Assembly (NCBI GenBank): GCA_030616775.1
Contig: JAUWWQ010000048.1
Location: forward strand, 1-34,587
Reading direction: 5' to 3'
DNA length: 34,587 bases
Origin: Planctomycetota bacterium
GTDB lineage: Bacteria; Planctomycetota; Phycisphaerae; UBA1845
The notes beneath the pieces were generated by a model. That model was not told the DNA's origin, did no database searches, and saw only the letters and a program-made list of their open reading frames with translations. Below, piece after piece: positions 2,987 to 30,226 of this stretch (position 1 is the stretch's first letter; the number at the start of each line of letters is the position of its first letter). A program made the position numbers and the translations under genes.

Positions 2987-3282
2987 ACCTGTTCCCTTCG
3001 CTCCAGACTTGCCAAACGCGTGGTAACGAACGCGGTAATGACAAAGCCGTCGTCTTGTGACACCTCACGATATACTACCACAAGCACCCGCCGCTGGTCC
3101 AGCGGGCGCACGGCCAATAACTCCGCGGCACTCCCCGCCAGGACCCCTTCAGGGGCGGCAATGGCCTCGAGGACATCGTCGCGAAGGCCGGCCAACTCGC
3201 AGTGCTCCTCAACAATGTGCGCCCAGCGTTCGTCGGTCAAACGAATCGGGACTCCGCGGCAAGATTGTACGGTCCTGGTCAT
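2968..3282 (-). CDS. PBECR/RelE-like putative nuclease toxin
   Basis: A 104-residue protein: an N-terminal beta strand, then RLTDERWAHIVEEHCEL, VLEAIAAPEGVLAGSAAELL, and LVVVYREVSQDDGFVITAFV. This layout (ERW-x-HI-x3-H, P-x-x-V-x-x-G, VVYRE...DGFVITAF) fits the PBECR/RelE-like small nuclease families that pair with DUF2283. The two His of HIVEEH and the Arg/Glu of VYRE are candidate catalytic residues. The ATG overlaps the TGA of the restriction enzyme (ATGA), so it is coupled to that gene. Toxicity is not shown; the alternative is an uncharacterised regulator of the enzyme. Confidence 0.68.
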   Translation of the reverse strand: MTRTVQSCRGVPIRLTDERWAHIVEEHCELAGLRDDVLEAIAAPEGVLAGSAAELLAVRPLDQRRVLVVVYREVSQDDGFVITAFVTTRLASLERREQVWPRKS

Positions 3283-6200
3283 CGTTGCGTTGCCTCCTCC
3301 ACGATGCGGATTTCGTCGTCGGTCAGGGCGTAGAGCTCGTATACAAGCTGGTCGATCTGCCGATCTGTGACCTCGATCTGCCGCCCAATGGCCGTCTTGT
3401 CCGTCGGCGTCCGGGCTGCATCAAGCTCCTTGTGAAGCGACAACATGCGCTCCACAAGCTCAACCATCCGATCGTGCCGGGACTTGTCCCCGCGGTCATT
3501 AAAGTTCACTCGACGAATGGGAAGCTGCTCGACATACTGAGTAAAGTAGCGGAAGTAGTCGCCTCGTAGCGTCGTGCTGACCCTCTTCAGGAAAAAATCG
3601 AGCGTCTTACTGTTAAGCAAACCAAGAATGTACTTCGGAGATTCGCCGGTGCTCGCTTTGAGCGTGATCCCGTAGCCACTGGTAAACGCATATACACCCG
3701 ACCCATCAAGGGCAAAGGATGCTCGATTAGCTATGTCTGGGACGAGAATCTTGCTTGACTCCATTATGTCAATGTTCTTCGGGTAGACGTATCCGTACCA
3801 GTTCGGACCCCGCATTCGCCCACGTTCGCGCGACTCCAAGAAACTCCTGTTTTGGCGTAGATAAGCGTATGTGTGTGGAAATTGCGCTTGGTACTCCTCT
3901 TCGGGAGTCAACCGGACCCGCTGCCCGGAGACTTCATAAGGAATAATCACTACTAAACCTGACGGCATGATTCGGAACGGTTTAATCTCGCGCCCCTTCA
4001 AGAAGAGCTTGACTGCCAAGCGCTCAAGTTCGACCGTCCGTTCGAGGCATACCGATCGTGCGGTTACAATGTCGGTTGATTCCGACACTACTTCCAGTAC
4101 GTAAACATCGTTCGCGCTCGTGCGTATTCCCTGCGCGATGCGCTCCGCTACATCCTCCAACCTCGTCGCTATCGTGCGCATTCTGGCGAAGAGTTCCGAT
4201 CCCCGACCGACATTGAAGTTCCACTCGCTCGACGTGACTTGTGCGGACCGGATCGTACCCGTGTCTGCATGGAAATCCGTGCGCCATCTCGTCAAGTCCG
4301 TTACTCGGGCAACTTGGAAGTCATCCGTTGTTTTCTTGTCCAAGAACATAAGACATGTGTACGTTGTGGCGCCGACGAAGACCTGTTGGTCGGTGAAGTG
4401 AACCACGTGGTAGATGTGGCTTCCTTGTGCGATCGACTTCCGCAGGGGCTGGCCGTACTTCGCGTTGAAGAACTTGTGTGGGAGGATCAATCCGAGTCGC
4501 CCGGTCCCATTGAGCAGTTGTAACCCACGTTCGACGAACAATACGTAAATGTCGAAGTTCCCCTTACGGGCCGCTTTGTAGCGGTGTTTGTAGTACTCAA
4601 CCTCCTGTGAATACCACTCTCTTAGGGCTTGCACGCGGATATACGGTGGATTTCCGATAACGGCGTCGAAGCCGCCGGCTTTGACGGCCTCGGGGAACTC
4701 GGCCTCCCAGTCGAAGGCGTTTATCCGGTAACGCTCCTCCTCGTCGAGCAGTGAGAGCTGCTGGTTGTCGTAAAAGTCCGGGCCGATCAGGCTGTTGCCG
4801 CACTTGATGTTGCTGCCCAGGTCGGGCAGGGCCCGCTCGTGGAAGAGGCGGAGCTGGTTCTCCAGTGTTTGCTGGTTCTCGCCTTCGAGCACCTTGAGCA
4901 GCAGTGACAGCTTAGTGACCTCGACGGCCTGGGGGTCGATGTCCACGCCGTAGATGTTGTTGAGCAGAATCCGCTTGCGCTCGGCCACCGTGAGCCGCCA
5001 GGTGGCGCCACGCAGATATGGTGCGCCCTGATCAGATCCGCGACCGTGAGGGAGCGGTTTGCCAATAGCGCCACCGGACTGCGGAACCGCTCCATCACTG
5101 TCGCGGTACTGACTGGAACTGCCCACCTGGTAGATCGGGGGGTTCTTCTTGCGGGCCCACTTCTCGGAGTCGTTCTCGGTATACCACTTGAGGTGCCAAT
5201 CGAGCAGGTATTGATAGGCCCCGAGCAGAAACGACCCGCTGCCACAGGCCGGGTCCAGAATGCGTAGGGTTTTGTCCGCTCCCTTACGGTCGCGGCTCTG
5301 ATCTTGGGCACGGGTCGGATGACGGGCGCCGGTGCCTTTGCGCTGTTCGAGCATGGGGCCGACATCGGCTGGGGTCTTGCTCTCCAGCAGCTTGCCCACG
5401 GTGTGTTTGACGATGTAGTCCACGATGTAGGACGGCGTGTAGTAGACGCCGCCCGCTTTCTTGACCTCGGGTTTTTCTTCGATGACTGCCCGGTGCCCTT
5501 CGGTCAATCGGATGACCTTGCCGAGAAACTGCTCGTAGACATGCCCGAGAATCTCAGCCGGCAGAACGGAGAATTCGTAGGGGCACTCCGGGTAATACAG
5601 CCGTTTGATGATGTCCTTCAGGACTCTGTCGTCGATCACAAGGTCAGGGGTCAGCTCGTCGGGCTCTTCCGCCCGCCCCTTTTCAGGCTGAAAGTGGAAC
5701 AACCCGGAGTTGTAACGCTCGTCGGCCCGGTAAAACAGCTCCACAAGGCGGCGGTAGATGTTGGGGCCGTTGGGCAGGACCCGTAGCTGCTCGTAGGTCT
5801 CGACACCCCGATCCTCGCACATCCGCAGAAAGATGATCCGGTCGATCGTCCTGGTGACTGCAAAGTTCAGATCGCGCACGGACAGACCGCGATTGCGAAG
5901 GGCGATGTTGCGGGCCAGCAGCTCCCGCCACTCTTCGATCTCCTTCAAGAATTCGGCGTCGACCTCGGCCGTGCCGCGCTTGCGGCGGGTGGACTCGGCA
6001 TACTTGTCGAACGAGCCTTTGAGGATGGACTCTTTCTCGAAGATCGCGGCGATCTGGCCCCACCGCTCCGGGTACTGGTCATACGTCACGTACATGACCC
6101 GGGCTGTTGACGGTCTGTCGGTCAGCTTCGGTTTGATCCGGCAATCGTAGACCGCCAGCTCCTCGAAATCGGTCACTATCGACAAGGGCAGCTTGTTGCT

Positions 6201-6566
6201 CCAGGCGTAGCGGCGGAGCTGGTAGGCTGGGCCGGGTTCGTCCTTGACCCCTACCACCGGTTTCTTAGCCTCGACGAAGAACTTGCGCACCCCGCCGATT
6301 CGGAAGCAGTAGTCCGGGGCCTTGGTGGATCCACCGACCTTGATGGCGTCCTCGTGAATGACGTCCTTGTAGGCCTCTGCGTGGCCAGCCTTGTTGGCCA
6401 CATCCCAACCCAGGGCGGTGAAGAAGGGATCGATGAACTCACGGCGCACCTGGGTTTCCTTGTAGGCCTGTTGTTTATAGGCGTCCGCGTGCTCGTGGAA
6501 CCGCTCGACGAGCTTCAGAACAGCAGGCGGACAGGGCGCTCGTTCATTTGTTGCAGATGCGGACAT
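3279..6566 (-). CDS. Single-chain Eco57I-like restriction enzyme and adenine methylase (Type IIG)
   Basis: About 1095 residues combine nuclease, methyltransferase and target recognition. The N-terminus carries a PD-(D/E)XK-like region (DVIHEDAIKVGGSTKAPDYC, then VRKFFVEAKKP near residues 85-105). The methylase has motif I DPACGSGSFLLGAYQYLL near 440 and motif IV GNPPYIRV near 638, typical of N6-adenine enzymes. The C-terminal third resembles TaqI-like specificity domains and ends in the conserved tail ALTDDEIRIVEE. I chose the ATG at 6566, not the upstream GTG at 6596, because a -35/-10 pair lies just before it. Two stretches around residues 410-435 and 480-515 look inserted in frame and contain palindromic elements (PLPHGRGSD). 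The stop overlaps the toxin start. Confidence 0.88.
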   Translation of the reverse strand: MSASATNERAPCPPAVLKLVERFHEHADAYKQQAYKETQVRREFIDPFFTALGWDVANKAGHAEAYKDVIHEDAIKVGGSTKAPDYCFRIGGVRKFFVEAKKPVVGVKDEPGPAYQLRRYAWSNKLPLSIVTDFEELAVYDCRIKPKLTDRPSTARVMYVTYDQYPERWGQIAAIFEKESILKGSFDKYAESTRRKRGTAEVDAEFLKEIEEWRELLARNIALRNRGLSVRDLNFAVTRTIDRIIFLRMCEDRGVETYEQLRVLPNGPNIYRRLVELFYRADERYNSGLFHFQPEKGRAEEPDELTPDLVIDDRVLKDIIKRLYYPECPYEFSVLPAEILGHVYEQFLGKVIRLTEGHRAVIEEKPEVKKAGGVYYTPSYIVDYIVKHTVGKLLESKTPADVGPMLEQRKGTGARHPTRAQDQSRDRKGADKTLRILDPACGSGSFLLGAYQYLLDWHLKWYTENDSEKWARKKNPPIYQVGSSSQYRDSDGAVPQSGGAIGKPLPHGRGSDQGAPYLRGATWRLTVAERKRILLNNIYGVDIDPQAVEVTKLSLLLKVLEGENQQTLENQLRLFHERALPDLGSNIKCGNSLIGPDFYDNQQLSLLDEEERYRINAFDWEAEFPEAVKAGGFDAVIGNPPYIRVQALREWYSQEVEYYKHRYKAARKGNFDIYVLFVERGLQLLNGTGRLGLILPHKFFNAKYGQPLRKSIAQGSHIYHVVHFTDQQVFVGATTYTCLMFLDKKTTDDFQVARVTDLTRWRTDFHADTGTIRSAQVTSSEWNFNVGRGSELFARMRTIATRLEDVAERIAQGIRTSANDVYVLEVVSESTDIVTARSVCLERTVELERLAVKLFLKGREIKPFRIMPSGLVVIIPYEVSGQRVRLTPEEEYQAQFPHTYAYLRQNRSFLESRERGRMRGPNWYGYVYPKNIDIMESSKILVPDIANRASFALDGSGVYAFTSGYGITLKASTGESPKYILGLLNSKTLDFFLKRVSTTLRGDYFRYFTQYVEQLPIRRVNFNDRGDKSRHDRMVELVERMLSLHKELDAARTPTDKTAIGRQIEVTDRQIDQLVYELYALTDDEIRIVEEATQR
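5030..5112. repeat. In-frame inverted palindromic element in the restriction gene
   Basis: Two inverted copies of the core CGCTCCCTCACGGTCGCGG lie head to head: about 5038-5059 (reverse) and 5088-5107 (forward, two to three mismatches). They form a stem of about 20 bp around a 25-base loop. The reading frame of the restriction gene continues through them. The reverse copy encodes KPLPHGRGSD, a peptide I recall as recurrent in unrelated planctomycete proteins. It lies between KKNPPIYQ and WRLTVAERKRILLNNIYGVD, which related enzymes have close together. Confidence 0.7.
5274..5302. repeat. Second in-frame copy of the same palindromic element
   Basis: CGCTCCCTTACGGTCGCGG followed by CTCTGATC matches the reverse copy at about 5038-5059 but in the opposite orientation. 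In the restriction gene it encodes QDQSRDRKGAD just before motif I (LRILDPACGSG), inside a ~25-residue Arg/Gln-rich stretch that looks inserted. Confidence 0.68.
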
Positions 6567-6573
6567 GTACGTA

Positions 6574-6603
6574 AAGATACGGTAGGAGGACGCCACTCGT
6601 CAA
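6574..6603 (-). promoter_or_regulatory. Promoter of the restriction gene, leaderless type
   Basis: On the minus strand, TTGACG (6603-6598), an 18-base spacer and TATCTT (6579-6574) are followed after 7 bases by the ATG at 6566. Transcription would start at or next to the A of the ATG, so the mRNA probably has no leader. No ribosome binding site is present. Confidence 0.55.
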
Positions 6604-6742
6604 CATGTAACAGGGTGTGTTCGTGACCCTGCCGGATGCGTGCGGGCCGATAAAGAGATTTTTCTTGACCGCGCTTAGAGGGATGGGTATACGTGCATCC
6701 AGTCCGAGGTTGCTCGGGCGGCTTTGACAAGTGAATAGCTCG

Positions 6743-6992
6743 CGGTTGCCGGTGTCCGCTTGGGCGGACGTAAAAGGGAAGGTGGTGCAAATCCACCGTG
6801 GACCCGCCGCTGTAATCGGGGACGAACGCCACTTTATGGCCATTCGCAGATTGGCTGCGTTGGGCATGACCGCGCGGGCTAAAGCCCGCAGCCCGGTTGG
6901 GTTTTGAGTCGTGCCGCACAACGCAGCGGACTGTGGAGAAGGCGTGGTTAGTAGGATGATCCGTAAGCCAGAAAACCTGCCGGTGATCGTCG
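6743..6992 (+). ncRNA. Cobalamin riboswitch (AdoCbl-type, class I-like)
   Basis: All the conserved blocks are present in order: AAAAGGGAA (6772-6780), GGTGCAAATCC (6784-6794), GACCCGCCGCTGTAA (6801-6815), GCCACT (6828-6833), GGAGAAGGCG (6935-6944), GGATGATCC (6954-6962) and the B12 box AGCCAGAAAACCTGCC (6966-6981). The variable arm between GCCACT and GGAGAAGGCG is unusually long, about 100 bases. It has a 9-bp stem, GCTGCGTTG (6854-6862) with CAACGCAGC (6919-6927), extended by GGCATGAC with GTCGTGCC, and capped by a palindromic element. An intrinsic terminator follows at 7108 and a three-gene operon at 7207. Cobalamin binding is expected to favour termination. Confidence 0.93.
6871..6897. repeat. 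Palindromic element inside the riboswitch arm
   Basis: CGCGCGGGCTAAAGCCCGCAGCCCGG has a 7-bp GCGGGCT/AGCCCGC stem (6874-6889) and the asymmetric flanks of the elements at 14325, 20172 and 29099. It caps the long variable arm of the cobalamin riboswitch, so it was tolerated without disturbing the conserved core. Confidence 0.75.
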
Positions 6993-7107
6993 CTTGTTGA
7001 TGTGGTGCCTTCGGTGATGGGGTGCCTCGATCAGCGGCTGTCGTCGGCGTGCAGGACCGCACATGTGGCGGTGCTGACAAAGTGTTGCCCGACTGCTATG
7101 ACGCCTG

Positions 7108-7147
7108 ATCCCGGTTCTCCCCAGCATCGGAGCACCGGGATTTTTTT
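7108..7147 (+). terminator. Riboswitch-controlled intrinsic terminator
   Basis: ATCCCGGT (7108-7115) pairs perfectly with ACCGGGAT (7134-7141), with an inner CTCC/GGAG stem, and runs into TTTTTTT (7141-7147). It lies between the B12 aptamer and the first start codon at 7207. This is the expected layout of a transcription-terminating expression platform. The 115 bases between aptamer and terminator probably hold the anti-terminator. Confidence 0.88.
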
Positions 7148-7206
7148 GTGTCTACCGGTCGCGAGGTGACGTGGTTTTGCCCCGGCCGGTAAAAGGAGCG
7201 TCTCAC

Positions 7207-8043
7207 ATGGCCGGAAAACTATTACGGAAACAGCGCGTTTTACAATGTCACACTTATGTCATCGTCGGTCTTTGCCTGATTAGTGGTATTACCCCGACGT
7301 CAGCCTCCGTCGTGGTCGACCTCGAGGATCTCTCACTGGAGCCCAATTCGTTCTACAACGGTTCGGACGGTGCCGGCGGTTTCACCAGCCGCGGGGCGTT
7401 TTTCAACAACACCTTCACCGACTTCGGCGGAGGCTTCGTCGTATGGTCCGGCTGGTCATACTCCAACATGACCGACACCACGACGCCGGGTTTTGGGAAC
7501 CAGTACAGCGCCATTGCCGGCGGCGGAGCTGACGGGTCAGGCAACTACGCTGTTGCGTTTGCAACGGCCCCGGGCGATGCGACCATCACGCTGCCCACCG
7601 CAATGTATGCCCAGTCGGTCTACGTGATCAACACCACCTATGCCTACTTTTCGATGCTCGATGGCGACGCGTTTGGCAAGCGGTTCGGTGGCCCGACCGG
7701 CGACTATCCGGACTATTTTCTCCTCACAATCTCGGGTGTCGATCCGATCGGCAATCCGGTCGGATTCGTGGACTTCTACCTGGCCGACTACCGCTTCGAG
7801 ACTAATTCGCAGGATTACATGATCGACAGTTGGACTGAGGTCGATTTGTCGGCTCTGGAGGGTGCCAATGTCTTGTCATTCGAGCTTACGTCTACGGATG
7901 TGGGCCCTTACGGAATGAACACACCGGCTTACTTCGCCATCGACAATCTTCATCTGGTACCTCAGCCGGCAACGCTGGTATTGGTGGCCGTCGGTACTGT
8001 GGCGGTCTGTCGGCGTACTCTGCGTCGTCACCCACGGAGTTAG
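7207..8043 (+). CDS. DUF4465 domain protein with PEP-CTERM-like tail, B12-regulated
   Basis: A 278-residue exported protein. The ATG at 7207 has a good GGAG ribosome binding site 8 bases upstream, which is better than the in-frame GTG at 7171. Residues 1-34 form a signal peptide. The body has the DUF4465 pattern: LEDLSLEPNSFYNGSDGAGG, FTSRGAFFNN, GGFVVWSGWSYSNMTD, and GFGNQYSAIAGGG. The C-terminus VPQPATLVLVAVGTVAV followed by CRRTLRR is a PEP-CTERM-type anchor, with Gln in place of Glu, that would be processed by an exosortase. DUF4465 proteins recur in Bacteroidetes B12-uptake loci, and I believe the cobalamin-binding BtuH proteins belong to this family. With the riboswitch upstream, a cell-surface cobalamin-binding role is the best inference. 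Confidence 0.83.
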   Translation: MAGKLLRKQRVLQCHTYVIVGLCLISGITPTSASVVVDLEDLSLEPNSFYNGSDGAGGFTSRGAFFNNTFTDFGGGFVVWSGWSYSNMTDTTTPGFGNQYSAIAGGGADGSGNYAVAFATAPGDATITLPTAMYAQSVYVINTTYAYFSMLDGDAFGKRFGGPTGDYPDYFLLTISGVDPIGNPVGFVDFYLADYRFETNSQDYMIDSWTEVDLSALEGANVLSFELTSTDVGPYGMNTPAYFAIDNLHLVPQPATLVLVAVGTVAVCRRTLRRHPRS

Positions 8044-8048
8044 AACCG

Positions 8049-9194
8049 GTGCAACAGGCTCGTGCGTTACGAATAGGTGTACTTGTCGTACTCGTTGGTT
8101 TGCGGGGTCAGCTTCCGGCTGAGACGCCCTTCGCCACGAGAGTGATTGACTATTCACCGGCACCGGGGCAATGGGTAAACGATCCTGACTTCAACGATCC
8201 GACGGCTGCGCTGGGGCGACCGCACGCCGGCGGGTTCGCCAGACCGGATCATTCGTCCCTGGTGAGCCTCGGCGGTTTCGGGGGTTCCGTCACCCTGGCC
8301 TTCGATCACACTGTTCTCGATGATCCGCTCAACCGGTTCGGTATGGATGCCATCGTGTTCAGCAATGCGTTCTGGGTCGGCGGAAATCCCAACCGGCACT
8401 GGGCGGAATGTGCCACAATCGAGATCAGTCTGGATATCAATGAGAACGGTCTAGCCGACGATCCGTGGTATCTGATCCCCGGCTCACACATCGCCGATCC
8501 AGTTGCTCAGTTCGCGGTCGTAACATGGGATGACGATGTCGGCGACGCGACATATCCACCCGACTTGGCGGTGTGGATCCCACCGGACTACGCAGGTACA
8601 TGGACCACACAGGCCTATGAGCTGCCCTATGATCTGTTCGGATCACAGGTGGTGGTCGTCAACCCGAGCGGAGACCCGGATCGCGAAGGCATCTTCGGCT
8701 ATGCGGAGTATTCCCCGACCCTTGTGTTGGGCGACCTGGACGGCGACAACGTTTCCGACAATCCGGACATCGCGCCGGAGGATTTCTACACGATTCCCGA
8801 CAACCCACTGACTGTCGGCATCGCACCGGGCTCGGGAGGTGGAGACGCGTTCGACATCGCCTGGGCAACTGATCCAAGCACGGGTGAATCCGCCGACCTT
8901 CCCGGGTTCGACTTCATTCGGCTCACCACAGCCGTGAACGCCGTGGATGCAGGCAGCGAAATGGGCGAGAAGTCGGCTGAGATCGACGCCGTCGCCGACG
9001 CCGCGCCCGATCCGTTCGGGGATTGCGACAGCGACGATGACATCGACCTGGTCGACATAGCCGGTCTGCAAAAGTGCTTTGCCGCGAGCGAGACGGCCGG
9101 CGTGGAGTGTGATCGTTTCGATTGCGAGCCGGACGGGTACGTTGATCTCCAAGACGCCGCCGCCCTGGTCGATCGGCTTACCGGCCCAAGATGA
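8049..9194 (+). CDS. Dockerin-tailed surface protein of B12 loci
   Basis: A 381-residue secreted protein starting at GTG 8049, with GGAG about 10 bases upstream, only 5 bases after the previous stop. Residues 1-26 form a signal peptide. The core has VIDYSPAPGQWVND, VSLGGFGGSVTLAFDHTV, AIVFSNAFWVGGNPNRHWAE and IEISLDINENGLADDPWYLI. This order of motifs is seen in the cell-surface proteins of Bacteroidetes cobalamin loci. Residues ~320-378 (GDCDSDDDIDLVDIAGLQKC..., DCEPDGYVDLQDAAALVDRL) are two EF-hand-like dockerin type I repeats, common in planctomycete exoproteins and absent, as far as I know, from the Bacteroidetes relatives. It probably works with the DUF4465 protein on the outer surface. 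Its biochemical role is unknown. Confidence 0.78.
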   Translation: MQQARALRIGVLVVLVGLRGQLPAETPFATRVIDYSPAPGQWVNDPDFNDPTAALGRPHAGGFARPDHSSLVSLGGFGGSVTLAFDHTVLDDPLNRFGMDAIVFSNAFWVGGNPNRHWAECATIEISLDINENGLADDPWYLIPGSHIADPVAQFAVVTWDDDVGDATYPPDLAVWIPPDYAGTWTTQAYELPYDLFGSQVVVVNPSGDPDREGIFGYAEYSPTLVLGDLDGDNVSDNPDIAPEDFYTIPDNPLTVGIAPGSGGGDAFDIAWATDPSTGESADLPGFDFIRLTTAVNAVDAGSEMGEKSAEIDAVADAAPDPFGDCDSDDDIDLVDIAGLQKCFAASETAGVECDRFDCEPDGYVDLQDAAALVDRLTGPR

Positions 9195-10024
9195 GATGTT
9201 GGAGTATGACGGCAATGTCCGAACAGGCGCTGCCCCAGACAACACTGGAAAATGACGGTCGCCAGGGACGGGCATTCACGCTCGTCGAGCTGCTCGTCGT
9301 ACTGTCAATCCTGATGTTTCTGCTTGCCGTCTTGTTACCCGGATTGGCGCGGACTCGTCAGCAGGCTCGTTCTGCGGTATGCCGGTCCAACATCCGTCAG
9401 ATCGCCCTGGCTGATGACCTTTATGCCCAGGAATCCGGCGGTGTGTATTGCCCCGGTGCGGCCGATTTTAGGGAGAACCTGCGTCGCTGGCACGGACGGC
9501 GCGATTCGGGCAACGAACCGTTCAACTCGGCAGACGGCCCGCTGGTTGCATATCTCGGCCTCGACGGCGCCATCCGGGCTTGTCCCTCCTTTGAACCCGA
9601 GTTCGTCGGTTTCGAGGCGGGCAACGGCGGCTACGGCTACAACAACGCCTATATCGGTGTGCAAACGGTCGGTTGCGATGTGGATGATGTGATCGTCACC
9701 AGTGATCTGGCCGGTGCATATGCCGATCGCGTGAAACGACCCGGCGAAACCGTCATGTTCACCGACGCGGCCTTTGTAGACGGGCATCTCATCGAGTACA
9801 GCTTCGCCGAGCCGCGCTTTCATCCACAGTTCGGCTCACGTGCCGATCCGAGTATCCACTTCCGCCACCACAAAAGTGCCAACGTCTCCTGGTGCGACGG
9901 ACACGTTTCACCCCAAACGCGTACCTTCACGTGGTCGAGCGGTGTCTATGAGGGCGACCCCGATCGCTGTGACATCGGCTGGTTCGGTCAGGCGGACGAC
10001 AATAGCCTCTTTGACCTATGGTGA
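9191..10024 (+). CDS. H-X9-DG pseudopilin (type II secretion-like), in the B12 operon
   Basis: A 277-residue protein whose ATG overlaps the previous stop (ATGA), so translation is coupled. Near residue 28 it has the prepilin cleavage/methylation motif GRAFTLVELLVVLSIL, a hydrophobic helix, then ARTRQQARSAVCRSNIRQIA. The C-terminus carries HHKSANVSWCDGHV, the H-X9-DG motif of planctomycete prepilin-type proteins. It should be cleaved by a prepilin peptidase and assembled by a type II-like machine encoded elsewhere. Its place behind a cobalamin riboswitch is unusual: such pseudopilins are numerous in this phylum but are not an expected part of B12 uptake. A third GxxxxEL-type start at MSEQALPQ (9215) is possible. 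Confidence 0.85.
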   Translation: MRCWSMTAMSEQALPQTTLENDGRQGRAFTLVELLVVLSILMFLLAVLLPGLARTRQQARSAVCRSNIRQIALADDLYAQESGGVYCPGAADFRENLRRWHGRRDSGNEPFNSADGPLVAYLGLDGAIRACPSFEPEFVGFEAGNGGYGYNNAYIGVQTVGCDVDDVIVTSDLAGAYADRVKRPGETVMFTDAAFVDGHLIEYSFAEPRFHPQFGSRADPSIHFRHHKSANVSWCDGHVSPQTRTFTWSSGVYEGDPDRCDIGWFGQADDNSLFDLW

Positions 10025-11328: not shown

Positions 11329-11826
11329 ATGCTCTGTCCGGCCTGCAAGGCAAACAATAACAAAGTCATCGATTCGCGCCTCACCGAGGGCGGAATGGCC
11401 ATCCGCCGCCGCAGGGTTTGCCAGTCCTGCGGCCGGCGGTTCACAACCAAGGAGCGGGTCGAGGAGGAGCTGCGCCTAACGGTCATCAAGGCGAGCGCCC
11501 AGCGCGTTCGCTACAACCGCGATAAGATCCTCAGCGGCGTCGAACGGGCCTGCACCAAGTTGGACATCACCGAGGCCGACCTGCAACAACTGGTCGATCA
11601 CGTCGAGGAGGACCTGTTCAACAACCACGATCGCGAGGTCACCACGGAGCAGATCGGGTACTACGTCAGCCGGCAGTTGCGACAGCTACACCCGGTTGCC
11701 TACGTTCGCTTCATGAGCGTCTATCGCAAGTACGGTACGGTCGACGAGTTTATCGAAGAGATCACCGACGTCCGCGAGCGCGTCGCCCATGAGAGCCCGG
11801 CCCAGCAGTCCCTGTTCGACTCCTGA
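11329..11826 (+). CDS. nrdR: Transcriptional repressor NrdR
   Basis: A 165-residue protein with the full NrdR architecture. The N-terminal zinc ribbon has C3-x2-C6 and C31-x2-C34 (MLCPACKANN, VCQSCGRRFTTKERVEE). An ATP-cone domain follows over residues ~46-138 (LTVIKASAQRVRYNRDKILS, VTTEQIGYYVSRQLRQL, AYVRFMSVYRKYGT). NrdR binds boxes upstream of ribonucleotide reductase genes and responds to the ATP/dATP balance. No nrd gene lies in the window, so it acts on distant targets. The length fits the family (150-170 residues). The gene is monocistronic or followed by the lipoprotein gene, which has its own promoter. Confidence 0.96.
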   Translation: MLCPACKANNNKVIDSRLTEGGMAIRRRRVCQSCGRRFTTKERVEEELRLTVIKASAQRVRYNRDKILSGVERACTKLDITEADLQQLVDHVEEDLFNNHDREVTTEQIGYYVSRQLRQLHPVAYVRFMSVYRKYGTVDEFIEEITDVRERVAHESPAQQSLFDS

Positions 11827-14262: not shown

Positions 14263-14530
14263 GCCAACCTGGTGACTCGATTGGAAGAGGCCCGGAAGCA
14301 CTAGAGCGATTCTCGAAATCATATGCCGAGCCGCGGGCTTCAGCCCGCGCGGAATCGTATAGCGACAGGACGCTCGCCGTCCCTGACGTACGGTATACGA
14401 AAACGGGATCTGCTCTATCAGCTCGATCGGTTCTTGGCCCAGTTGAACAAGGCCGACCTGCTGATCTGCGACGAACTGGGATACCTGTCCTTCAGCAGCA
14501 CCGGGGCCGAGGTGCGACAATCTGTGTTCA
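14262..14530 (+). pseudogene. IS21-family IstB helper ATPase, remnant
   Basis: The plus strand reads TTANLVTRLEEARKH and then a stop. About 100 bases later it continues LYQLDRFLAQLNKADLLICD and ELGYLSFSSTGAE, the Walker B/DELGY region of IstB. The two parts are adjacent in intact IstB proteins, so the interruption is a later insertion that includes a palindromic element. Walker A and the C-terminus are missing, and no istA gene is present. The piece is dead and fused to the IS1380 remnant. Confidence 0.82.
14325..14352. repeat. Palindromic element inside the IstB remnant
   Basis: GAGCCGCGGGCTTCAGCCCG followed by CGCGG has a 9-bp stem around a 2-3 base loop and is the same family as the copies at 20172 and 29099. 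It splits conserved IstB sequence, so here it is visibly an insertion. Confidence 0.75.
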
Positions 14531-28612: not shown

Positions 28613-30226
28613 CTATTCTTGGCGCCAGACGGTGCCGTCGGGGCGGTCTTCGAGGGTGATATTATGCCCAGCCAGCAGGTCGCGGATCATGTCGGATGAC
28701 TCGAAGTCCTTTTTCTTGCGCAGATGCTGGCGAACTTTGATGAGGACTTCCATGGCCTTTTCGCCGAGGCCGTCACCCGCGACAGCTTTCTTCTTGGGCG
28801 GGTCTATGAACAGCCCGATTAACCGCGCCACAGCGATCAGGTGGACAGTGGCGGTGAGGGCGTCCCGAACCGAAGTTGGGGGGCGGGAGTCCGCGCGGGC
28901 TCCCGATAAATCGGGATTCCATTCCGCACGCGGCTCAGCGCTGTCTAGTTTTTCCTGCTCGATGAAGCGGTTGACCGTACCGGCAAAATCAAAGAGCGCG
29001 GCAATGGCGCCGGCTGTGTTGAAGTCGTCGTCCATGGCCTGCTTGAATCGGGCGAGGAGACCTTCGCAAGCCACGGCGAGGGATTCGGATTGGATCTCCG
29101 CGCGGGCTAAAGCCCGCGGCTCGGTGAGACTCTCTGATTTCATGGCATCGCGGGCTAAAGCCCGCGGTTCGGTGAGCGTGGACGCTTTCTCATACGGCGA
29201 AGTACCGCAGATGCGCTCGACGCGCTCGAAAAGGCGATAGAAGGTGTCAAGACCCTTGCGCTTGCTCTCGATCTCCTCCTCGGAATACTCGATTGGCCGG
29301 CGGTAGTGGGTACTGAGCACGAAGAAGCGGATCAGCTCGCCGGTGTATTCATCGAGTAGGTTGTGCAGCGTCATCTTGGCAAGGGCTGCCTGCATCTCCG
29401 CGCTGGCGTCGGACTTCGAGATCTTCTTGGTGTTGAGGCGTGTCAGCCCGTTGTGCATCCAGACCTTGGCGAAGGGTTTCCCGGTGGCGGCTTCGGACTG
29501 GGCAATCTCGTTTTCGTGGTGAGGAAAGACCAGATCCATCCCTCCGCCGTGGATATCGAAGGTTTCCCCCAGGTACCGCATAGCCATGACGGAGCATTCG
29601 ATATGCCAGCCGGGTCGGCCCTTGCCCCAGGGTGAGTCAAACTTAACCTCGTCGGGTTCATCCGGCTTGCTGGCTTTCCACACTGCAAAGTCGCCGGGAT
29701 TTCGCTTTCCCCCGCTCTGAAGATCGCGCTGACCGGCTTGCTCCTCCGGGCGGCGGTTGGAGAGCTTGCCGTAACCAGGGTGTTTAGCGACGTCAAAGTA
29801 GACATCGCCATTGGATTGGTAAGCAACGCCGTGCTCGATCAAGCGCTCGACGATCGAAATGATGTCACCGATGTGCTCCGAGGCCTTGGGCAAGATGTCA
29901 ATGCTATCGACGTGGAGCTTGGCCATGGCGTCGAGGTAATCCTTCGTGACCCGGTGGGCCAGCTCGGAGGTGGTGGTGTTCTGTCTGGCGGCTTCGTCGA
30001 TGAGCTTGTCGTCCACGTCGGTGATGTTGACGACCCAGGTCACGTCGAAGCCGCTGTAAACCAGATAGCGTTTAATGGCGTCGAAGATAATCGGGCCGAC
30101 GGCGTGGCCGATGTGGCTGGGCTTGTAGACGGTCGGCCCGCACACATAGATCCCGACCTTGCCGGGCGTTAATGGTTGAAAGGGTTCCTTCTCGCGTGTC
30201 AGAGTGTTGTAGACGACCAGGCCCAT
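28613..30226 (-). CDS. cysS: Cysteinyl-tRNA synthetase, with in-frame palindromic insertions
   Basis: A 537-residue CysRS, about 75 longer than E. coli CysS (461). It has zinc/ATP-site motifs VCGPTVYKPSHIGHAVGP (HIGH at 38-41), WVVNITDVDDKLIDEA, RPGWHIECSVMA, GGGMDLVFPHHENEIAQSEA, and KISKS near 268 in place of KMSKS. The ATG at 30226 has GAGGA upstream and starts at conserved sequence. The linker (~345-450) between the catalytic core and the anticodon-side helices contains three palindromic elements read in frame: residues ~351-360, ~367-377 and ~431-446, giving the duplicated peptide LTEPRALAR. The catalytic motifs are intact, so the enzyme is probably functional. It follows ispF with a gap of 92 bases. 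Confidence 0.95.
   Translation of the reverse strand: MGLVVYNTLTREKEPFQPLTPGKVGIYVCGPTVYKPSHIGHAVGPIIFDAIKRYLVYSGFDVTWVVNITDVDDKLIDEAARQNTTTSELAHRVTKDYLDAMAKLHVDSIDILPKASEHIGDIISIVERLIEHGVAYQSNGDVYFDVAKHPGYGKLSNRRPEEQAGQRDLQSGGKRNPGDFAVWKASKPDEPDEVKFDSPWGKGRPGWHIECSVMAMRYLGETFDIHGGGMDLVFPHHENEIAQSEAATGKPFAKVWMHNGLTRLNTKKISKSDASAEMQAALAKMTLHNLLDEYTGELIRFFVLSTHYRRPIEYSEEEIESKRKGLDTFYRLFERVERICGTSPYEKASTLTEPRALARDAMKSESLTEPRALARAEIQSESLAVACEGLLARFKQAMDDDFNTAGAIAALFDFAGTVNRFIEQEKLDSAEPRAEWNPDLSGARADSRPPTSVRDALTATVHLIAVARLIGLFIDPPKKKAVAGDGLGEKAMEVLIKVRQHLRKKKDFESSDMIRDLLAGHNITLEDRPDGTVWRQE
28891..28936. repeat. Palindromic element in cysS, long-stem variant
   Basis: It keeps the family ends (CCGCGCGGGCT at 28891 and GCGGCTCA at 28930) but has an inner hairpin CCCGATAAATCGGG. 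It encodes roughly AEPRAEWNPDLSGARAD in cysS. Confidence 0.6.
29099..29129. repeat. Palindromic element in cysS, copy 2
   Basis: CGCGCGGGCTAAAGCCCGCG followed by GCTCGGTGAG, an 8-bp stem. On the cysS coding strand it encodes LTEPRALARA. Confidence 0.8.
29149..29176. repeat. Palindromic element in cysS, copy 1
   Basis: CGCGGGCTAAAGCCCGCGGT followed by TCGGTGAG, nearly identical to the copy 20 bases away at 29099-29129. It encodes LTEPRALARD. The pair looks like a tandem duplication or a double insertion. Confidence 0.8.

Follow-up and report, generated by a model that had tools for sequence, protein, structure and literature searches.

What is a pilin-like protein doing in an operon controlled by vitamin B12? 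The question is raised by a stretch of 34,587 nucleotides (hereafter the window; contig JAUWWQ010000048.1 of assembly GCA_030616775.1, from a Planctomycetota bacterium), in which a cobalamin riboswitch and a terminator precede three genes, encoding a DUF4465 (BtuJ-type) protein, a BtuH-like protein and a pseudopilin, that is, a type IV pilin-like protein. We found that the pseudopilin genuinely belongs to B12-riboswitch operons and is conserved in them, even where both binding proteins are missing. The operon very probably serves cobamide/B12 acquisition with the pilin as a true partner. The explanation that best accounts for it as a whole is a B12-repressed scavenging operon with two binding proteins and a pseudopilin filament in cobamide capture, to which we would give a probability of roughly 0.6. 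The features of the operon, all on the forward strand, are:

6733 to 6998 (+): cobalamin riboswitch aptamer, RF00174 (103.1 bits, E 5.6e-25, model positions 1-189 of 189)

~7107 to 7147 (+): intrinsic terminator of the riboswitch expression platform, a GC hairpin followed by U7 (-22.3 kcal/mol, z -3.3)

7207 to 8043 (+): gene 1, a DUF4465 (BtuJ-type) B12-binding family protein with a signal-like N-terminus and a PEP-CTERM-like tail (PF14717, E 8e-55)

8049 to 9194 (+): gene 2, a BtuH-like B12-binding family protein with a weak C-terminal dockerin match at residues 324-377 (8blw_B, E 1.4e-14)

9191 to 10024 (+): gene 3, a type IV pilin-like protein with its mature part encoded from 9272 (N_methyl, E 9.1e-6)

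A preliminary description of the locus had called the three genes tightly packed, which the coordinates bear out; genes 2 and 3 overlap, the start of gene 3 falling within the stop of gene 2 (ATGA). It had also placed the pseudopilin with the B12 genes and proposed looking for the same trio behind RF00174 matches elsewhere. The trio was found widely, and operon conservation marks the pilin as a functional partner. In a sample of 41 genomes from the window's class, 38 have the riboswitch, and in 36 of these it is followed by the pilin, DUF4465 present or not and often with a BtuH-like gene alongside; BtuH-like and pilin genes are directly adjacent in most of these operons. One of the two exceptions (G111) has its riboswitch 845 bases from a contig end. 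The other (G220), which is the sole intact one, has a TonB receptor behind the riboswitch. When a pilin profile was searched by sequence alone across 392 Planctomycetota genomes, 76 matched and 63 were tallied. RF00174 is present in 52 of the 63, and in 48 of those 52 it is followed on its own strand by a pilin at a distance of 134-2871 bp. Most of the tallied genomes are without DUF4465, a family encoded in just 11 of the 392.

The complete trio of DUF4465, BtuH-like and pilin genes occurs at 20 loci in Planctomycetota, Verrucomicrobiota and one Armatimonadota (Fimbriimonadaceae) bacterium, so that the earlier suggestion of a planctomycete-specific system has to be dropped. Two of the verrucomicrobial genomes are labelled Akkermansia muciniphila (L046, L047). 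Both carry the trio, and an RF00174 match was found in neither genome; behind the trio stand a PF01497 gene, directly, in L047 and a FecCD match in L046. Four class relatives that have DUF4465 each carry, adjoining that gene, the best gene 3 homologue of the whole genome; it matches at full length (E 1e-44 to 1e-62), the next-best pilins reaching ~1e-16 with partial coverage. In Pirellulales a different pilin subfamily lies directly upstream of DUF4465. A tree built by a quick method divides the pilins of B12 loci into two or more separate subfamilies, largely distinct from the generic pilins. Genes 2 and 3 seem to be missing from the closest relative (L014; CP070827, a Phycisphaerales bin) only because of an assembly gap: gene 2 begins there and runs into N.

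The pilin also heads operons of other composition. At three loci of family f32 (L122, L128, L134) it is the first gene after the riboswitch, and neither a BtuH nor a DUF4465 gene was found in the fetched loci. In another genome (G257) it heads a cobamide-salvage operon: behind the riboswitch come the pilin, a 101-residue protein, proteins of nitroreductase (BluB-like) and CobB/CobQ type, and then CobO, CobT and CobS. A further genome (G137) has a second riboswitch on the opposite strand, directly ahead of a divergent pilin, and a third ahead of yet another pilin. In genus g79, eight loci (L110, L111, L114-L116, L119-L121) encode a pilin very like the B12-linked ones with no cobalamin riboswitch upstream, and the g79 genomes that carry it are mostly without a detected cobalamin riboswitch. 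No hidden riboswitch was found ahead of the unlinked g79 pilins, as tested in G238, or ahead of a second pilin copy in G287.

Cobalamin riboswitches repress uptake and salvage genes. The preliminary description had listed a complete riboswitch and terminator, and both were confirmed: a covariance-model search of the window matched RF00174 from end to end at more than three times the gathering score (31.5 bits), with an 81-base insertion in a variable arm, and the hairpin runs into a U-run. The start of the aptamer, previously put at 6743, is corrected to 6733. A search of the whole 4.45 Mb genome returned this copy of RF00174 alone, ahead of the trio operon. A simple promoter/terminator scan misses the hairpin at ~7107-7147 and shows no sigma-70-like site ahead of the operon. 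The whole leader is 96% identical to that of L014, and hairpin, U-run and ribosome-binding site are unchanged. Judged by the family of its riboswitch, the operon is probably regulated by cobalamin. Within the variable insertion of the aptamer, in L014 as in the window, sits one copy of the palindrome GCGGGCTAAAGCCCGC, which occurs four times in the window (6874-6889, 14333-14348, 29102-29117 and 29150-29165, one copy with 1 mismatch) where 0 copies are expected by chance.

The first two genes had been likened to surface proteins of Bacteroidetes B12 loci, and the family matches agree. The similarity of gene 1 to PF14717 (186.3 bits, cut-off 25) supports its assignment to the B12-binding family BtuJ/DUF4465. 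Its matches in the Protein Data Bank are DUF4465 structures, the best being D5EK51 (9hmu, 9.6e-25) and then BtuJ1 (9fct, 2.9e-23). B12 binding by DUF4465 was demonstrated in 2026 in eight distant members, a protein of the planctomycete Mucisphaera calidilacus among them, and 97% of homologues keep the tyrosine that binds B12 in the HI (NTPAY) loop (PMC13398666; for the family see also PMC12751083). Gene 1 is a full-length member that keeps this loop (MNTPAYF, aligned with BtuJ1) and also has an NTTYAY motif. It differs from BtuJ1/BtuJ2 and D5EK51 in that a PEP-CTERM-like tail replaces the lipoprotein signal and in that the window locus has no TonB receptor. Its start codon could be the ATG at 7207 or a GTG at 7171; an indel in L014 just 5' of the ATG favours the former. 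In three Pirellulaceae loci (L023, L028, L031), a gene directly 3' of the pilin gene encodes a protein of ~1300-1950 residues with two to three DUF4465 domains and one BtuH-like domain per chain.

Gene 2, which starts with GTG, is by its sequence matches a supported homologue in the B12-binding family BtuH. With phmmer it matches the BtuH domain of Bacteroides thetaiotaomicron BtuG1 (8blw_B, E value as listed) and BtuH2 (7biz, 2.2e-10), and a profile of gene 2 with its relatives spans the whole BtuH domain (7.6e-27). The relatives' own BtuH-like proteins diverge more, a profile from them alone reaching 8blw at E 0.0012. The B12 contacts of BtuH2 are Gln333, Asn399, Phe401, His476, Tyr510, Trp511 and Trp577 (PMC8941943). 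In our own matching of positions, based on where the construct begins and ends (residues 103-593) and on the phmmer alignment, the first three have kept counterparts in gene 2, and His476, Tyr510 and Trp511 fall in a poorly aligned part. The likeness extends over the B12-binding domain; where the Bacteroides proteins have PKD domains and a lipoprotein signal, gene 2 has a weak dockerin match.

The anchors formerly ascribed to the two proteins, PEP-CTERM and dockerin, hold in part. The tails are of planctomycete type, and that of gene 1 reads PQP where L014 reads PEP (PEPATLVL). In the window both models stay below threshold: PEP-CTERM (PF07589) scores 18.0 bits in gene 1 against a cut-off of 20.7 (E 0.003), and Dockerin_1 (PF00404) 17.8 bits in gene 2 against 22.9 (E 0.0038). 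The genome encodes a clear exosortase, and the BtuH-like proteins of related operons in two other genomes (G388, G127) exceed the dockerin cut-off.

For gene 3, the earlier reading as a translationally coupled H-X9-DG pseudopilin stands as regards the prepilin N-terminus (25.5 bits, cut-off 21.2), the motif itself and the overlap; the H-X9-DG model (TIGR04294) falls short of its curated cut-off (13.3 against 19 bits), as does DUF1559 (PF07596; 16.5 against 23.3). Besides the motif, gene 3 has an IGWFG...DNSLFD tail. An alignment of 15 family members has W73, C104, R198, D209, G210 and G236 invariant, and the subfamily is marked by the motifs RWHG, GGYGYN and C-terminal GWFGPxDN. It is a distinct, B12-riboswitch-linked subfamily of the H-X9-DG/DUF1559 prepilin-type proteins of planctomycetes and verrucomicrobia, with which it shares the N-terminus and the motif. 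A first structural model was poor (predicted local distance difference test score, pLDDT, 77.9); one from an alignment of 36 family members reached pLDDT 94 and a predicted template modelling score (pTM) of 0.90, with a helix at residues 4-54. Foldseek returned no significant match for either model. Structural realignment lists type IV pilins only, with PilA4 of Thermus (6xxd) the best at a modest Z of 5.8 over 121 residues, and the models suggest a type IV pilin fold shared at low similarity.

In Bacteroides, btuB, btuG, btuH, btuJ and btuCDF stand behind cobalamin riboswitches. The window operon shares the riboswitch and both surface-protein families with these loci; the pseudopilin stands in place of BtuB/BtuG, and the transporter is outside the operon. 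None of the three operon genes encodes a TonB receptor or an ATP-binding cassette (ABC) transporter, as had been stated earlier. This does not extend to a general trait, for relatives carry transporter or cobamide-salvage genes behind the pilin. In one (G057) the riboswitch is followed first by the DUF4465, BtuH-like and pilin genes and then by genes for a periplasmic binding protein (PF01497), an ABC ATPase and a FecCD permease, corresponding to BtuF-BtuD-BtuC; a verrucomicrobial locus (L026) likewise has PF01497 and FecCD genes after the pilin. In Bacteroidota and others, DUF4465 lies beside a TonB receptor instead of a pilin: among DUF4465 loci, 17 have the receptor, 35 a full-length pilin and none both, counting the receptor of that cluster. 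Second cobalamin riboswitches in two class genomes (L203 in G209, L204 in G261) stand ahead of a 716-residue open reading frame, which in G209 codes for NRDD, the class III (anaerobic) ribonucleotide reductase. An nrdR gene lies near the trio operon, at 11329-11826 of the window.

Cobamides (~1355 Da) are too big for ordinary porins, BtuJ and BtuH bind them at the cell surface, and the textbook outer-membrane route for B12 is BtuB with TonB. Pili-like fibres of planctomycetes bind dextran, and porins are described as passing ~600 Da only (PMC5394234); hence a dedicated route for B12 is expected. The fibres of Planctopirus and Gemmata are a precedent for substrate capture on planctomycete fibres. 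Their substrate is a polysaccharide.

Under the scavenging explanation, plentiful cobalamin would bind the riboswitch and transcription would halt at the terminator, leaving the operon off. When B12 is scarce, the BtuJ-type and BtuH-type cobamide-binding surface proteins would be made along with the dedicated pseudopilin. The pilin would then be processed and built into a type IV pilus or type II secretion-like filament via one of the several secretins encoded in the genome. Such a filament might reach through or to the outer membrane and capture or hand over cobamides, doing the work of the BtuB-type TonB receptors found elsewhere; onward transport would fall to a BtuF-type protein in the periplasm and an ABC transporter. 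A pseudopilus may plausibly present corrinoids; a capture or import role for the filament is tentative, and we rate it as less likely than not. The wider proposition is more doubtful: that planctomycetes, verrucomicrobia and relatives have a dedicated B12-repressed pseudopilus that captures cobamides, whether or not surface binding proteins assist, and takes them across the outer membrane, either alongside TonB/BtuB or instead of it.

Could the pilin simply be a neighbour by chance? The family is abundant in planctomycetes, with 10 to 111 gene-3-like matches per sampled genome. Against this, 49 of 54 pilins have a same-strand riboswitch within 5 kb upstream where chance would give ~0.1% per pilin, although the sampled genomes are related, so that the counts are not independent events and a binomial estimate overstates significance. 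No pilin stands downstream of those riboswitches inspected beyond the class whose genomes lack this pilin, so the profile has not created the riboswitch-pilin link. Together with the independent riboswitch-pilin distances, these pilin-free riboswitches in other classes rule out chance adjacency, whose probability we regard as negligible. A rather unlikely but more substantial alternative makes the pseudopilin a cargo-specific component of a type II secretion-like export machine for the BtuJ-like and BtuH-like proteins, in which it would not itself handle cobamide. Pseudopilins of type II systems do act in export, and the adjacency of BtuH-like and pilin genes and the multiple secretins would both fit; other phyla, however, have DUF4465 and BtuH proteins without a pilin, and the f32 pilins, directly behind the riboswitch where neither protein was found, argue for an independent role rather than mere export of the two proteins. 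It is somewhat less probable that the pilin-like N-terminus is an inner-membrane anchor only, with the head handling cobamide in the periplasm or envelope and no filament formed. The head is large (~200 residues) and gives a high-confidence model, many of its aromatic and polar residues are invariant, and tens of pilin-like genes per genome are hard to square with equally many filaments. Yet every member retains the glutamate-containing prepilin cleavage motif, and the nearest folds belong to filament-forming pilins.

Several observations also count against the scavenging explanation with its capture filament. One genome (G352) has a riboswitch-controlled pilin and, nearby, a TonB receptor under a second riboswitch; as the two coexist there, the pilin is not a simple substitute for BtuB. 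A single Plug-domain gene and a single FecCD gene remain in the window's own genome; neither is beside its only riboswitch, the sole Plug match being on another contig than the operon. The g79 pilin, a related one, is not behind any detectable riboswitch, and the corrin contact Trp577 of BtuH2 is a Glu in gene 2.

As to what is new, the binding-protein families and the riboswitch were already known, and these families are no longer of unknown function now that DUF4465 has been found to bind B12 (PMC13398666). No paper tying a pilin to the acquisition of B12, or to cobalamin riboswitches, was found in the open-access literature (5.39 million papers; subscription papers and preprints lie outside this scope). 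The regular company of this pilin with B12 riboswitches across many planctomycetes points to a so far undescribed, perhaps pilus-based, means of gathering the vitamin. If import by the filament were true, it would be a categorically new route, the pilus-based uptake of a small-molecule vitamin. Eight of 28 DUF4465 genomes lack a Plug-domain match and still carry DUF4465 B12-binding proteins, usually with an adjoining pilin. Planctomycetes carry tens or more H-X9-DG/DUF1559 pilins, of which one subfamily is now tied to one metabolite and a measurable signal, offering a direct way to ask whether such pseudopilins serve nutrient capture. The trio in verrucomicrobial genomes, the two labelled Akkermansia among them, may bear on competition for B12 in the gut.

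Elsewhere in the window, the reverse strand carries an Eco57I-type restriction-modification methylase gene (3279-6596). It holds two PLPHGRGS-type repeats in opposite orientation, at 5035-5057 and 5276-5298, which look like inserted interspersed repeats.

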